A stretch of DNA of 64,000 nt from NCBI GenBank assembly GCA_003963305.1, contig RXJR01000031.1, forward strand, positions 124,001 through 188,000, in the 5' to 3' direction. A program made the position numbers and the translations under genes. The DNA is from Candidatus Melainabacteria bacterium (lineage in GTDB: Bacteria; Cyanobacteriota; Vampirovibrionia; Obscuribacterales; Obscuribacteraceae). A model generated the notes under the pieces. The model saw nothing but the letters and a program-made list of their open reading frames with translations, searched no databases and had not been told where the DNA came from. Positions 38,868 to 46,642 of this stretch are shown piece by piece; position 1 is the stretch's first letter, and each line of letters begins with the position of its first letter.

Positions 38868-39632
38868 TTAATAGGCTTGCAATTTCGACGGCAACGATTT
38901 ATCTGGAAGATTCAACGTCTGCACCAGCCCGATGCGTTGCAGAGCCTGAAGCACGAGCCAGGACACATCGATTTCATGAGCAGCGAAGCCGCTGCGTGCA
39001 GAACCAGGAAAGGCATGATGGTTGTTGTGCCAGCCTTCTCCCAGAGTCAAAAAAGCTATCCACGGAACGTTGACGCTATTGTCTGACGTCTCGAAATTTC
39101 GATATCCATATTTAGGAATATGCGACACAAGATTGAGAATCAACGGCATCTGTTGCGCGGCTATACCAGCGAAAACGCTCGCCAACGCTATCCTCGAATC
39201 GACTAAGAAAAATAGAGAGATGCGCAGTAGAACACAAATGACAACGCATAAGAAATAGCCGCGGTAGAGATGCCCATCCTGATCAAGAAAGCGGTACAGA
39301 GGATCTTTCAAGAGGTCAGGGGTGAGCGCAGCCGGCGAAGTCTCATTCGTGTATCTAAACTTCAACATCCAGCCGGCGTATTGATAGAACCATACGGCGG
39401 ATGGACCATGAGGATCTGCTGCCGTGTCGGGATGTTTGTGATGAGCGCGATGAATTACCGCCCACGTAATTGGCGACCCTTCCATCGCCAGGTACCCGGC
39501 AAGCACGAAAAAGTATTCAACCACTTTGCTGCATTTAAAAGATCGATGCGACAGAAAACGGTGATAACCAACCGTGACACCGAGCATGTGAACTGTGTAC
39601 AGCAAAACAAAGGCGACTATAAATTCAATCAT
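38868..39632 (-). CDS. Membrane fatty-acid desaturase (acyl-CoA delta-9 type)
   Basis: 254 residues. The three diiron His boxes are intact: HRFLSH, HRAHHKH, and HNNHHAFPGSARSG. Hydrophobic pairs flank them. Inserts a double bond into acyl chains using O2 at the membrane. Somewhat shorter than typical (~300) but complete. Last gene of a five-gene operon: its start overlaps the previous stop by 4 bp (ATGA). In this context it may act on a product of the operon's ketosynthase and not on bulk lipids. Confidence 0.9.
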   Translation of the reverse strand: MIEFIVAFVLLYTVHMLGVTVGYHRFLSHRSFKCSKVVEYFFVLAGYLAMEGSPITWAVIHRAHHKHPDTAADPHGPSAVWFYQYAGWMLKFRYTNETSPAALTPDLLKDPLYRFLDQDGHLYRGYFLCVVICVLLRISLFFLVDSRIALASVFAGIAAQQMPLILNLVSHIPKYGYRNFETSDNSVNVPWIAFLTLGEGWHNNHHAFPGSARSGFAAHEIDVSWLVLQALQRIGLVQTLNLPDKSLPSKLQAY

Positions 39633-40489
39633 ACTGGCACTTTCTGCTTTAGTTTTGACTGAGCGTCACGCAATTGCAGCAGGTACTCATGCAAGTGTTC
39701 CGTAAACAGTCCATGCAGTACAAAGCGTTGCGAAAGGTGCAGTGGTCCCACCAGAAACATCGGATAAGTATTTCCAGCCAGGGCGGCGATCTCAGCATGC
39801 CCTGTGATGCGCGCCGCACGGATTGCAAGCGATTGATCGAATTGCAATGAATTGATAGATCGCTCATATTCAGAAGCCTTCAAGAGAACACAAAACAAAG
39901 CTTTGAATAATTCGTGAGCAGTTTCGAAGTCGACTACCTGTGCAAATTTCCGCTTGTTTACATCGAACGGAAAGTCAATATCGCGCATCAAAGAAAAGTC
40001 CAGTTTCTCCAACGGCACCGGCCAATCCTCCTCGGCTACGCTACCGAGGTCATGCAATGAATTGAATAGAACAATGTCGTGATCGATGAAAGTCTGTTTC
40101 ATGAAATCATCGATCTGGCAGGGATAAAGATCTGCAGGTGGAGTTTTGCAGTTCTTACTATTGGCAATGACGAAATTGATGATGTTGGATTCCGTCCAGA
40201 AGTGACGCAAGATAATGTAGTTAGCTTCTGGCGTTACAACATTTTTCATAAACCAACAAATGGTCGCCTGCAATGCGTGATGCGCTGAAAACTGAATCGG
40301 AAAGAGCCGCTTCAAAAAATATGCAGTGCACAGAGTGATAGTCGCGCCTAACCGGCAAACATGCATAACCGTCAGGCGTAACGGATGCTTCAAATTCACG
40401 AGCCAGCAACGAGCCGCTTCTTTGTCCATGGGCAGGCTATCATCGATTGCCAGAACATCGAACAATGATGGGTCGGCGCGATTATACAT
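39629..40489 (-). CDS. Unknown protein in the ketosynthase operon
   Basis: 286 residues, family not recognised. Hydrophobic stretches near 38-62 (LTVMHVCRLGATITLCTAYFL) and 72-90; His/Glu/Asp-rich motifs (FSAHHALQATICWFMKNVVTPEANYIILRHFWTE is split here only by context; LFNSLHDLG; FETAHELFKALF; HLHEYLLQL). The HH...E...H pattern could bind metal, but this is a guess. It overlaps the oxidase gene upstream by 8 bp and the desaturase downstream by 4 bp, so it must work in the same pathway. Confidence 0.7.
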   Translation of the reverse strand: MYNRADPSLFDVLAIDDSLPMDKEAARCWLVNLKHPLRLTVMHVCRLGATITLCTAYFLKRLFPIQFSAHHALQATICWFMKNVVTPEANYIILRHFWTESNIINFVIANSKNCKTPPADLYPCQIDDFMKQTFIDHDIVLFNSLHDLGSVAEEDWPVPLEKLDFSLMRDIDFPFDVNKRKFAQVVDFETAHELFKALFCVLLKASEYERSINSLQFDQSLAIRAARITGHAEIAALAGNTYPMFLVGPLHLSQRFVLHGLFTEHLHEYLLQLRDAQSKLKQKVPV

Positions 40490-41171
40490 TGTCTAATTCC
40501 TCTAACTGCATCGCATAAAGTCGGCTGACCACCTTGGCGGTCTTCACTATTTTATCGGATGCAGTTTCAGCATGTTGGTCGAGCAAGGCATAAAGTTTCT
40601 CGATGTGAGACTCGTCGTTTGCACCGTGATAGCTGAGAAACTTAGTCTTAGAAGGTTCGATGCAGAGCAAATCCTGAATGCGACCCGCCCACTTGTTAGC
40701 CATTTTCTCGCCCAAGCCCTCGATGATAAACATGGCACCCAGAAGATCGAGCGGATTCGGCTGGCTGGCCTGATTGAGAAGGTACGCGGCAAGCGCCTCC
40801 GTTCCGATGTTTCTAGGTGCACTGCGGATGGTATCGCGGTCTCCACCACAGGCAACATAGTCATTCTCGATCAATTCGTAATCACGGTGCTCCTCCAGGG
40901 CGTGGCGGATCACGACAGAACGAACCTCCGCGTACTCCGATGTGAAGCTGGACGCTGCCCGCGTAATCCAACGCGCACCTTCAACAACTTGCGGGCGCAA
41001 ATTACGCAGCAGAGTCATATAGTCTTCGTCAGAAAATGTTCCCTGCTCAAGACGTCGAATGATGGGAACGCGATTGAGCTGCCGCTCAAATTGCAGCCAG
41101 ACCGCCAGCAAATCACGTAAAGTCAACTGACCTGCCAGGCTGAGCGTCGTAGACTTATCTGCGGTAATCAT
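40482..41171 (-). CDS. Haem-oxygenase-like diiron oxidase (TenA/PqqC-fold)
   Basis: 229 residues, all-helical. Motifs fit the HDO superfamily (UndA, SznF, CADD type): Glu near RRLEQGTFS, E/H in VVEGARW, ALEEHRDYE (E-x-x-H), and NDESHIEKLYALL (E-x-x-H). Such enzymes use a diiron or iron centre and O2 to cleave or oxidise fatty acids or amino acids; UndA makes terminal alkenes from fatty acids. Start overlaps the ketosynthase stop by 4 bp (ATGA). Confidence 0.75.
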   Translation of the reverse strand: MITADKSTTLSLAGQLTLRDLLAVWLQFERQLNRVPIIRRLEQGTFSDEDYMTLLRNLRPQVVEGARWITRAASSFTSEYAEVRSVVIRHALEEHRDYELIENDYVACGGDRDTIRSAPRNIGTEALAAYLLNQASQPNPLDLLGAMFIIEGLGEKMANKWAGRIQDLLCIEPSKTKFLSYHGANDESHIEKLYALLDQHAETASDKIVKTAKVVSRLYAMQLEELDNV

Positions 41172-42403
41172 TGTTTGCCTCCGACGACTGTGAGTTTCAT
41201 GTATGCAGTTGTAAATCTACCGCTCTCGGGGATCGTACAAAAAAGCGTCTGACCCTCTTTCAATTCACCGCTCTGATAAAGCTCATCCAGCATAATGAAA
41301 ATTGAAGCGCAACCGGTATTACCTTTGGTGTACAGGTTCGTGAACCACTTCTCTTCAGGCACCATGCAACCGGATCGAGTCAGCAAATCAACGATTTTGC
41401 CTCGAAAAGTATGCGAAGAGTAGTGGCAAACGAAATAGTCGATTTCCTCGGGCTTGACCTTACCTTGCTTGATCAATCGCAAGAATCCTTCCACACCTAC
41501 TTTGACGATATTGTCCAGAATGCGAAGATTCTGTCTCAATAGAAGCGCACCGGAACGCTCCGCATCAGCGTAGGTTTCATAGTCTTGCCATGAGCGCTCG
41601 CGCAACAACGTTGCAGAGTTTGTCTTTCGTGCCGACTGCTGCAATTCACTCAGTTTCTCCAGTGACGGCGCCGCAGCAGATGCAGGTGAATAGTGCCCAG
41701 CCGACCATTGGCTTTGATCGGCGGTGCCGCAGGACATACATAGATCGAAATCTGACGCATATGACATCACCTCAATCCAATCGATGCGCAAACTGATTCC
41801 ACGAGGACGCGGCTTAGATTCAACCAGAAGTGCACCCGCACCGTCACTGAGCATCCAGCGTAAGAATTCCGCCTCCAGATCTAATGCTTCATGCTTGGCT
41901 GCTTCATATCTGCTCTTCTTCAGCAATCGAGAAGCAAGCTCAGAAGCGCACACAAGTGCCGTCTGCTTCTCACCCAGTTTCACTTGATTTGCTGCCGCCT
42001 TAAGCGCCATCACACCACTGCTGCATACGCCGTGAGTGCTGACTATTTCGCAGGCAGGAATATCCAACTCGGCTTGAACCATGCTTGCCAGGCCTGGCAA
42101 GGGTAGGTCACCTTGCGTCGAACCAACTGCGAGCAAATCAATATCATCACTGTCTGCAAAGGCATTATTCAAACAATGCAATGCAGCTTGAGCGGCGAGT
42201 TCGCTGCACTGATAGGTGCTTTGTTGATTATGATTCAATGCGTAGTGCCGGGTTTTAATGCCGTTTGCACGCAGAATTTTCTGTTTCAGTCTCGACGGTT
42301 TTCCATTCACCAGTCCGAGAATCGACTCTATTTCATCGTTGCAAATCGGAGGTCCCGGTAGAAAACTGCCAGAACTAGTTATAAACGCTTGTTGAGTGCT
42401 CAT
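41168..42403 (-). CDS. KAS III-type beta-ketoacyl synthase
   Basis: 411 residues, longer than FabH (~320). Thiolase-fold enzyme with catalytic Cys in VSTHGVCSSGVMAL, His in FVCHYSSHTF, and Asn in YTKGNTGCAS. It joins an acyl starter to malonyl-ACP or condenses two acyl-thioesters (OleA/FabH-like). An insert near 170-270 (KHEALDLEAEFLRW...WSAGHYSPASA) sets it apart from FabH. It starts directly after the preceding stop (TAA ATG). No acyl carrier protein gene lies in this operon. Confidence 0.85.
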   Translation of the reverse strand: MSTQQAFITSSGSFLPGPPICNDEIESILGLVNGKPSRLKQKILRANGIKTRHYALNHNQQSTYQCSELAAQAALHCLNNAFADSDDIDLLAVGSTQGDLPLPGLASMVQAELDIPACEIVSTHGVCSSGVMALKAAANQVKLGEKQTALVCASELASRLLKKSRYEAAKHEALDLEAEFLRWMLSDGAGALLVESKPRPRGISLRIDWIEVMSYASDFDLCMSCGTADQSQWSAGHYSPASAAAPSLEKLSELQQSARKTNSATLLRERSWQDYETYADAERSGALLLRQNLRILDNIVKVGVEGFLRLIKQGKVKPEEIDYFVCHYSSHTFRGKIVDLLTRSGCMVPEEKWFTNLYTKGNTGCASIFIMLDELYQSGELKEGQTLFCTIPESGRFTTAYMKLTVVGGKQ

Positions 42404-42994
42404 TTATGTAATCCCCTTAGAATCAGGATTGATTGAATGCCGGTGACGCCAACAACGAATGAATTCCTCTAAAAACGGCAATACATCAGCGAATAGCATC
42501 AGTGCGACGTAGCCGCAAACGTACCAGAAATCCAGAGGTTTCTCTCTCAAAGTGAGAGTCATCTGACCGTTCCAGTTGAGTGTGATCAAATCTACAAATG
42601 CATTCCAGTTGATGCAAATAATCAAAGCTACAATCACAAACGGCAAGACTTCGAGAAAGCTGTGTACATGAGTTTCCATAATCGAGATCTCACGCTTGTT
42701 TAGCGCGTATTTCACGTCGTGATGTGCGACCCACTCGTGAAACACCAGCACCGCAAACATGAGCAGAAGCAGCAAGACGTTGATTGTGAAAAACAAACCG
42801 AGGAAAACTGGAATTCCGATTTGTATTCCCATAACAGCGTGATAGACAGATTCTTTCATGCCGGTCGTCAACTCGATTTTAGACTTCCGGTGGCAGTAAT
42901 AGTCAGCAAAACCCATAACGAGCCAGAGCGGCAGGCAAACATACAAGATCATGTTGAATAACAACCGGTCAGTTGTAATGCTGCGAATATCCAT
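42404..42994 (-). CDS. His-rich integral membrane protein (possible fatty-acid hydroxylase-like)
   Basis: 196 residues, five or so membrane helices. Conserved-looking polar motifs: DYYCHRKSKIELTTG, FHEWVAHHDVKYA, and ETHVHSFLEVLPF. The H, HxxxHH and HxH groups recall membrane diiron hydroxylases/desaturases, but boxes are not canonical, so this is a weak suggestion. ATG at 42994 follows CAGGAG; longer upstream starts (to 43222) cross the 43.2 kb repeat array and look non-coding. First gene of the operon. Confidence 0.7.
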   Translation of the reverse strand: MDIRSITTDRLLFNMILYVCLPLWLVMGFADYYCHRKSKIELTTGMKESVYHAVMGIQIGIPVFLGLFFTINVLLLLLMFAVLVFHEWVAHHDVKYALNKREISIMETHVHSFLEVLPFVIVALIICINWNAFVDLITLNWNGQMTLTLREKPLDFWYVCGYVALMLFADVLPFLEEFIRCWRHRHSINPDSKGIT

Positions 42995-43162
42995 TTCGAC
43001 TCCTGCTTCCCGACAAATAAATGATGTCAAGGAAGCTGTATGCCCGAGCGGGAAAAACAACAGTTCACTCAGTGATCGGGTTATTGTAAAGCAATTGCAA
43101 GAACAACGGTGATGGACAAATCCAACAAAACACTTTACATTTGCCATCGCAGGCACACTCAA

Positions 43163-43308
43163 ATGGAGCGCATCAGTCCGAAGGCAATCGCACTTCATGG
43201 AGCGCATCCGTCCCGGATGCACCTGAATTGCTCAAATAGAGCGCATCCTTCCGAAGGCAACCGTACTCCATGGAGCGCATCCGTCCCGGATGCCCTAAGA
43301 CGTCAAAT
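43163..43308. repeat. 73-bp direct repeat, two copies, related to the 25.2 kb array
   Basis: Copies start at 43163 and 43236. Each has a first part (GAGCGCATC..TCCGAAGGCAA) and a second part (CATGGAGCGCATCCGTCCCGG). The second part is the inverse of the GGGACGG..GCGCTCCATGG core at 25176-25304. Lies between the starts of two divergent genes. Confidence 0.8.
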
Positions 43309-45139: not shown

Positions 45140-46642
45140 TCAGTGCCCTCCCGATAAGCTGGTAGGACCGGGATATTGCTTCTGAATGGCTACCTTGTCT
45201 CCGGGCGATAAAACATCATTTTCATCAGCATAGGCGGGGCTCGCCTTGCCGGTTTTCAGCAAAAACGGGGTCTGCGCGTACTGCATAATTGACGTTGTAT
45301 CTAGAGGTCCCAGGGCCAGGGCATCCGTATCTTCATAGGTTGCGATTTGCGAATAGCTCATCTGCGGGCTCCAACCTTGCGTAGAGACGAAATAAGTAAG
45401 CAGCCCCGGCTGGCGACCAGCTGAATCTGCCATGTAAGTGCCGCTGTTGTCTTTCGTCGGTACGTAGCCATAGTCGTCTTGCCATCTAATCTCAGTCATG
45501 CCACCAGCAAAAGGATGCTGATGTTCATGCAAGAAACCGAGTGCGTGACCAAACTCGTGCAGAATTGTACCGGTGTAGAATCTGCCCAACCGCTGCCAAT
45601 CAGTAGGGTCCAGGTTCATTGATTTCTGGTTCGGAGGCACAACAGAGACACTCTGCTGACCAATGACAGACCAGTATCCATCCTGCCCAAAGCCAATGCG
45701 GATATCCGCACTGTATTTAGTATCACTGGGGCTCCACTTTCTAAATTGTCCTGTAGCCGGATCTTTGAAATCGAATTTGATATTTCCGTATTTCGACCAT
45801 TCAGGAGCGGTGTCGGCGATCTTCTGACAAAGCGCAGGATCACCACCATTGAACGCAACCGTGATTGTTTTTCCTACAGGCCACTTAGCTGACGGCGCAA
45901 AAAGTGCTCTTCCGTTTTCAACTTTTGGTGATGCTTTATACATCGCCGCGAGATTCTCGACAATCATTGGAGGCGGAGGAACAACATCCCGTCCCGGCAG
46001 TCCACCCGGGTTGGGATTTACGAGGTTAGCAAAATAGGCGCAGGTCTTTGCTCGATCCGGATTGCTTGCAGCGTTCAATCGCGCTGCGGTCATGTACTCG
46101 TTGTAAGCATTCTTTCGATCGCCCAGGAAGCGATAAGTTTCAGCCAGGTGTTCATGAGCAGATGTATTGTCGGGATTCACACTGAGCACGAACTTCAAAT
46201 CATCACGAGCATCACCAAATTTATTGATATCAAAATTCGCTATGCTGCGCACCCATCGCACCTGCACATTGTCGGAATCAGCGAAAACCCCATAGTTAGC
46301 GTCAACAAATGCACTGTTGTAGTCGCCTCTGTCGATACTTATCGCAGCACGTCCAGCACGAGCCTCTGGGTCACCGGGATTTTGAGCGATTGCTTGACTA
46401 AAGTCTTGCCAGGAGCCCTTAAAATCACCAGACTGCAGTCGCTTCCATCCACTTGCAGCTAACGCGCTAATGGTGGAACGACTCTTCGATGGTGCGGATA
46501 ACAACGTTTTGGTGACATCGGTCTTCAGATCGGCGTTGAACGCATCATACGCTGAAACTGGAAGCGTTCCGCACACCACGGCCAAAACCGCTTGCAAGAC
46601 GATGAATGATTTTTTCCCATAGCGATGCTTTTTTGCCTGCAT
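45140..46642 (-). CDS. Secreted TPR protein with astacin-like zinc metalloprotease domain
   Basis: 500 residues. Signal peptide ends VCGTLPVSA. TPR units ~60-190, then a peptidase domain with the zinc site TILHEFGHALGFLHEH (HExxHxxGxxHE, M12A/matrixin clan) and a downstream SIMQYAQTPF Met-turn. All three zinc His and the catalytic Glu are present. ATG follows GCAGGAG. TPRs before the protease probably bind partners or substrate. Extracytoplasmic proteolysis is expected. Confidence 0.9.
   Translation of the reverse strand: MQAKKHRYGKKSFIVLQAVLAVVCGTLPVSAYDAFNADLKTDVTKTLLSAPSKSRSTISALAASGWKRLQSGDFKGSWQDFSQAIAQNPGDPEARAGRAAISIDRGDYNSAFVDANYGVFADSDNVQVRWVRSIANFDINKFGDARDDLKFVLSVNPDNTSAHEHLAETYRFLGDRKNAYNEYMTAARLNAASNPDRAKTCAYFANLVNPNPGGLPGRDVVPPPPMIVENLAAMYKASPKVENGRALFAPSAKWPVGKTITVAFNGGDPALCQKIADTAPEWSKYGNIKFDFKDPATGQFRKWSPSDTKYSADIRIGFGQDGYWSVIGQQSVSVVPPNQKSMNLDPTDWQRLGRFYTGTILHEFGHALGFLHEHQHPFAGGMTEIRWQDDYGYVPTKDNSGTYMADSAGRQPGLLTYFVSTQGWSPQMSYSQIATYEDTDALALGPLDTTSIMQYAQTPFLLKTGKASPAYADENDVLSPGDKVAIQKQYPGPTSLSGGH

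Follow-up and report, generated by a model that had tools for sequence, protein, structure and literature searches.

The question raised by the locus presented here is what a set of five overlapping genes from Candidatus Melainabacteria makes. The window, i.e. the whole analysed stretch of 64,000 nucleotides, covers positions 124001-188000 of contig C31 in a genome of 7.48 Mb, whose nearest named relatives are metagenome-assembled genomes (MAGs) of Candidatus Obscuribacterales/Melainabacteria. Five minus-strand genes, each with an ATG start, fill positions 38868-42994 head to tail and encode a membrane protein (MP), a ketosynthase (KS), a haem-oxygenase-like oxidase (HDO), a DUF6999 protein and a desaturase (Table 1). 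The original prediction, made from this DNA alone, had described an overlapping operon for a KAS III enzyme, a haem-oxygenase-like oxidase, a membrane desaturase and two unknowns, and had suggested an unusual acyl-derived product of no known pathway. Coordinates and junctions are exactly as described: from 5' to 3', TAA-ATG with 0 bp in between is followed by overlaps of 4, 8 and 4 bp, and several starts are preceded by purine-rich stretches. KS, HDO and DUF6999 form the core of this cassette and the set is widespread. We tentatively propose a conserved lipid-biosynthesis cassette, in which a DarB-type KS would join acyl chains, HDO would replace DarA and membrane oxidases would modify the chains.

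A DUF6999 query against the GTDB species genomes yielded 52 loci, to which one locus from a Pseudoalteromonas plasmid was added, and the partner genes were detected in these 53 loci by tblastn with the window's proteins. HDO was found in 53 loci, KS in 52 and MP in 51, with misses confined to L035 and L050, both of which begin within the cassette because the contig ends there. MP, KS, HDO and DUF6999 invariably follow each other in this order on the same strand. Besides the Pseudoalteromonas locus, the set comprises six Obscuribacterales-like MAGs (L003-L006, L008 and L051; L005 is filed as Actinobacteria), two Myxococcales MAGs and 44 loci of Poseidoniales or 'Euryarchaeota'. Because the genome-neighbourhood comparison, which had been proposed as a check, recovers the same order in phyla as distant as those of Obscuribacterales, Myxococcota, Pseudoalteromonas and Poseidoniales, the arrangement is not due to chance, and the idea of a set unique to this genome was rejected. 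DUF6999 occurs in 8 of 99 genomes comprising the source genome and its relatives (one match is merely a 47-residue fragment), in 35 of 243 genomes from the class of a Poseidoniales member and in 22 of 195 Myxococcota genomes, 20 of which match most of the profile. Among the 243 archaeal genomes, strong KS matches were obtained in 36, namely all 35 with DUF6999 and one with a KS fragment, the remaining matches having E values of 1.8e-10 or weaker. Both KS and HDO are present in all 30 Poseidoniales loci fetched from this set, and in eight Poseidoniales cassette genomes the cassette KS is the sole match to the StlD/DarB model. The viral contigs searched gave no match. Caulobacter vibrioides, a control genome, matches PF22523 and PF14518 at the level of the whole genome. 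The cassette is apparently undescribed: in agreement with the original prediction, our literature search found no paper naming DUF6999 and no described pathway with this gene set, in this or another arrangement.

Table 1. Genes of the cassette, in order of transcription (positions refer to the window).
Gene product	Length (aa)	Position	Strand	Features
MP, membrane protein, first gene	196	42404..42994	-	hydropathy peaks; without Pfam/NCBIfam match
KS, StlD/DarB-type ketosynthase	411	41168..42403	-	C127/H327/N362 triad; StlD-type E155 and R182
HDO, haem-oxygenase-like oxidase	229	40482..41171	-	PF14518; candidate ligands
DUF6999, helical protein	286	39629..40489	-	PF22523
Membrane fatty acid desaturase	254	38868..39632	-	PF00487; three His boxes

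Judged by model scores, phylogeny and active-site residues, KS is of the StlD/DarB kind that forms cyclohexanediones and resorcinols, and not a FabH or OleA. The window's enzyme reaches 395 bits with the StlD/DarB-like model PRK06816 compared to 107 bits with the FabH-like PRK09352 and 67 bits with PRK09258; this corrects the earlier KAS III assignment. Six other cassette KSs scanned gave 372-430 bits with PRK06816 and 327-377 bits with the DarB model, and the best solved relative of KS is StlD (5gk0, E 1e-81). The Cys-His-Asn triad of the thiolase fold (C127, H327 and N362) and the StlD-type residues R182 and E155 are kept in all 33 cassette and fused KSs. In the alignment, the StlD-type arginine is found in 23/23 cassette, 10/10 fused and 3/3 DarB-like KSs but in 0/8 FabH-like ones, whereas the glutamate equivalent to E155 is not diagnostic, as it also occurs in four of the eight FabH-like enzymes. 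We take R182 and E155 to be the equivalents of R190 and E154, the functional pair of StlD whose role was reportedly described by Fuchs in 2013; the StlD positions were placed via the 5gk0 alignment assuming a 20-residue tag. In the KS tree, the cassette KSs and the DarB-like KSs (from Streptomyces, Bacteroides and Prevotella plasmids) are split from the FabH-like enzymes at 100/100, with several long branches and a poorly resolved order within the cassette/DarB-like side, where the cassette KSs are not demonstrably monophyletic. On the strength of scores, tree and StlD-type arginine, both a FabH-like housekeeping KS and an OleA were rejected, and the closest precedent is cyclohexanedione/resorcinol formation instead of OleA chemistry towards the alkene or beta-lactone that had been suggested. 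A passage of PMC5515871 gives 4-carboxy-2,5-dialkylcyclohexane-1,3-diones as product of DarB and a dialkylcyclohexane-1,3-dione as that of StlD. DarB-like KS genes were also seen in other surroundings: on a Streptomyces plasmid (L123), one is clustered with acyl carrier proteins (ACPs), an FAD monooxygenase, FabF, a P450 and a 321-aa protein without a known family, and on Bacteroides and Prevotella plasmids (L124, L125) lone genes come straight after a helix-turn-helix or TetR regulator gene, with no annotated DarA nearby.

Myxobacterial loci connect KS directly to the oxidase. Fifteen stretches were fetched, out of the 22 Myxococcota genomes matching DUF6999, and ten of them encode KS and HDO in one protein of 624-726 aa (counted from the longest possible start), with a full KS domain on the N-terminal side and a nearly full HDO domain behind it; Pfam sees both in the one fusion scanned. 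Given this fusion, HDO most likely takes the product of KS. Among the other five loci, L200 has separate MP, KS and HDO genes with DUF6999 in reversed orientation, L203 a diverged HDO at the contig end and L209 merely a weak DUF6999 match. In six of these 15 loci (L195, L197, L199, L201, L206 and L208), the neighbour of either DUF6999 or the fused gene is a desaturase, a weak desaturase match lies beside the cassette in L200, and a PF04116 fatty acid hydroxylase stands beside it in L197, L199 and L208 (Pfam was run on L197 and L199). The window's HDO passes the gathering score of PF14518 (38.9 vs 28.9 bits), as expected from the original prediction, and shares this family with UndA, CADD, BesC and SznF. 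Most of the expected metal ligands are kept: E94, E151, H182, D186 and H189 are invariant in our alignments and represent five of the six expected ligands, aligning with the solved HDO-like protein 3dde and with residues of a CADD-like protein that we take to be its ligands.

From the observed gene set, gene order, co-distribution, fusion, families, conserved residues and repeated recruitment of desaturases we infer the following reactions and product class. KS would condense two acyl thioesters from the ordinary or polyunsaturated fatty acid (PUFA)-type fatty acid machinery to yield, by DarB precedent, a 4-carboxy-2,5-dialkylcyclohexane-1,3-dione. HDO would accept this beta-keto acid and use O2 and iron to strip the C4 carboxyl group and the C5 hydrogen in an oxidative decarboxylation of the UndA type, after which tautomerisation would give a 2,5-dialkylresorcinol. 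HDO would thus stand in for the aromatase DarA; it is proposed as the substitute because removal of CO2 from C4 and of hydrogen from C5 formally equals the reaction of UndA, which converts a fatty acid to an alkene and CO2 (PMC13108848, in its section 7), and because the fusion makes it the natural enzyme after KS. DUF6999 may catalyse a further, probably metal-dependent step or hold the lipid, and MP, the recruited desaturases and, in some myxobacteria, the fatty acid hydroxylase would set the unsaturation or hydroxylation of the chains. With the DarA/DarB dialkylresorcinol (flexirubin, arcuflavin) and StlD stilbene pathways, the cassette shares the KS family, the catalytic triad, the StlD-type arginine and an acyl-derived product, the last being supported as likely output. 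Unlike DarA/DarB, it lacks a DarA-type aromatase and possesses HDO, DUF6999 and MP. In its widest form this proposal is somewhat doubtful: bacteria and Marine Group II archaea would share a hitherto undescribed route, dependent on oxygen, to two-chain lipids of an aromatic or quinone-like nature, with a KS-coupled diiron HDO in the place of DarA and with DUF6999 and MP, as new families of metalloenzymes, finishing the molecule. If true, it would tie these two families, both without assigned function, to one pathway, add a class of HDO substrates that come straight from a ketosynthase and indicate that Marine Group II archaea of the surface ocean have an unknown lipid.

Several observations weigh against this proposal. 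KS falls under the NCBIfam cut-offs of both PRK06816 (395 vs 450 bits) and DarB (337 vs 550 bits), so its substrates may differ from those of StlD and DarB. No DarA candidate was recognised by family among the five genes, and the loci of different phyla have no other gene in common, DarA having been sought as a cassette gene and not genome-wide; NF053538, tried as a DarA model, turned out to be another family. In contrast to UndA and other HDOs, from which it also differs by its fusion to KS in myxobacteria, the cassette HDO has no first-helix histidine at the aligned position, the column being a gap or D97. The sixth ligand could be H95 or H90, which lie near this place and are invariant (26/26 and 10/10), or could be replaced by D97, and a variant metal site is possible. 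Furthermore, MP was not detected at the fused loci, HDO was not detected at L202 despite the presence of KS, DUF6999 occurs without KS or HDO nearby at L198, and many cassettes have no desaturase.

Of the two unknowns of the original prediction, one belongs to PF22523 (DUF6999; 283 vs 27 bits cut-off), and MP still has no match among Pfam and NCBIfam families. In a 49-row alignment of DUF6999, 21 Asp/Glu/His/Cys positions are kept at 97% or more, and E88, H96, E100, H137, D138, E189-x2-H192, H259 and E264 are conserved; its AF2 model is all-helical (pLDDT 84). MP has the invariant residues D31, C34, H35, E41, E48, H52, H86, H91, D93, E107, H109 and H111 (44-row alignment), and its AF2 model (pLDDT 89) shows five long helices with the conserved His/Asp/Glu where helices 1 and 3 end and helices 2 and 4 start, which, judging by the helix limits of the model, probably places them on one face of the membrane. 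Both proteins may be metalloenzymes. Foldseek searches of the PDB with both models gave no match at E<=0.001; the best VIA Z scores of 4.4 (rmsd 6.2, 170 aligned) and 7.9 (rmsd 2.7, 121 aligned) for DUF6999 and MP, respectively, fall within the range common for helical bundles, and HDOs and ferritins appear for DUF6999 only at the noise level of E>4. Sequence-profile searches of the PDB returned no match for DUF6999 and two chance-level matches for MP. No signal was found for a distant kinship of DUF6999 with HDO (E 0.21 over 9 columns) or of MP with the myxobacterial fatty acid hydroxylase. A passage of PMC8406957 offers the lead that DUF6999 might be a dimetal halogenase of the CylC type. 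The many invariant His/Asp/Glu residues of both proteins make further oxidations possible and agree with a rather unlikely alternative, in which KS would make a cyclohexanedione or alpha-pyrone and HDO and DUF6999 would hydroxylate or cleave it to a quinone, tropone or ring-opened lipid, without decarboxylative aromatisation. The very varied chemistry of HDOs outlined in section 4 of PMC13108848 is in line with such steps.

The desaturase confirms the original assignment, as it passes PF00487 (68.3 vs 29.7 bits) and has the His boxes HRFLSH, HRAHH and HNNHH in its translation. In Poseidoniales, a desaturase lies directly 3' of DUF6999 in 31 of 44 loci, or 31 of the 40 with at least 200 bases of downstream sequence (L048 was counted via its overlapping segment). 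Among Obscuribacterales-like loci it was found directly downstream in L008 and not in the other five, in the Myxococcales locus L009 it lies upstream, and in L002 and L007 it was not found. In a tree that omits six fetched desaturases and matches without a locus, the window's gene falls among Obscuribacterales desaturases (99/96), apart from the archaeal cassette ones, which are of two other kinds (groups at 99/99 and 86/85). As cassette desaturases occupy at least three separate clades, they were recruited repeatedly, and such repeated arrival at the same position strongly indicates that chain unsaturation would matter to the pathway.

Acyl chains could be supplied from outside the cassette. 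The absence of an ACP noted originally is correct for the operon but not for the genome, which has ACP domains elsewhere, one of them in a PfaA-like synthase. ACP domains are encoded in 10 of 11 cassette genomes searched, the archaeal ones inside open frames of 1071-3045 aa, so the operon needs no ACP gene of its own. PfaA-like synthases occur in 33 of the 35 archaeal genomes with the cassette versus 113 of 208 others (Fisher p 1.5e-6, ignoring relatedness and genome completeness). In the window's family there is no clear enrichment (7/7 cassette genomes vs 34/43 others at E<1e-100). A PfaA-like synthase is a possible acyl source for the cassette, although like other synthases of this PUFA/secondary-lipid type it is encoded away from it and is common in cassette-free genomes too.

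These data also bear on a hydrocarbon pathway, in which KS would elongate or join chains, HDO would, like UndA, form a terminal alkene by decarboxylating the resulting (poly)unsaturated fatty acid and the desaturase would add double bonds. The HDO family with its UndA precedent, the repeated desaturase recruitment and the archaeal PfaA association agree with it, yet we regard it as quite unlikely: UndA, which decarboxylates free medium-chain fatty acids to 1-alkenes, works without a KS, the fusion suggests that HDO acts on the KS product and not on free fatty acids, and the PfaA association ignores phylogeny, strong matches being present in 41 of the 50 genomes of the window's family anyway. 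As in the OleABCD olefin pathway, the cassette KS belongs to the thiolase superfamily and could join two acyl chains, but it is DarB-like and not OleA-like, scoring far higher with the StlD/DarB model than with any other KS III model scanned, and no oleB, oleC or oleD candidate was found among the cassette genes or the neighbours shared by loci. A housekeeping operon for lipid remodelling or stress, whose genes would be co-regulated without forming one pathway, fits the desaturases and hydroxylases as common lipid-tuning enzymes and the lack of any regulator, transporter or ACP gene among the five genes in Pfam/NCBIfam scans, but is very improbable given the KS-HDO fusion, the matching occurrence of KS and DUF6999 across the 243 archaeal genomes and the gene order kept across domains.

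Some further observations concern the synthases and the surroundings of the cassette. The source genome encodes a two-subunit PfaA-like synthase on contig C13 (L119:2803-16835) with the domain orders ER-KS-AT-ACP-KR-DH and KS-AT-DH-PPTase; its first subunit exceeds the PfaA cut-off (1217.7 vs 1010.1 bits), and the synthase adjoins a B12/radical SAM gene. In the Poseidoniales class, 146 of 243 genomes match a PfaA-like synthase. One such archaeal synthase is a single protein of ~3000 aa (L120:3597-12722, minus strand; KS-AT-ACPx4-KR-DH) adjoining a phosphopantetheinyl transferase and an enoyl-reductase-like SDR, and the synthase of this class is possibly an archaeal type I fatty acid or PUFA synthase. 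Sites resembling promoter or terminator consensus sequences occur no more often than in shuffled sequence. Just upstream of the cassette, positions 43158-43293 of the window hold two tandem 63-nt copies (90% identical) with the palindromic end GCATCCGTCCCGGATGC, a palindrome whose exact form is absent from the rest of the window. Positions 45140-46642 of the window encode a TPR protein, part of which resembles an astacin-like zinc protease.

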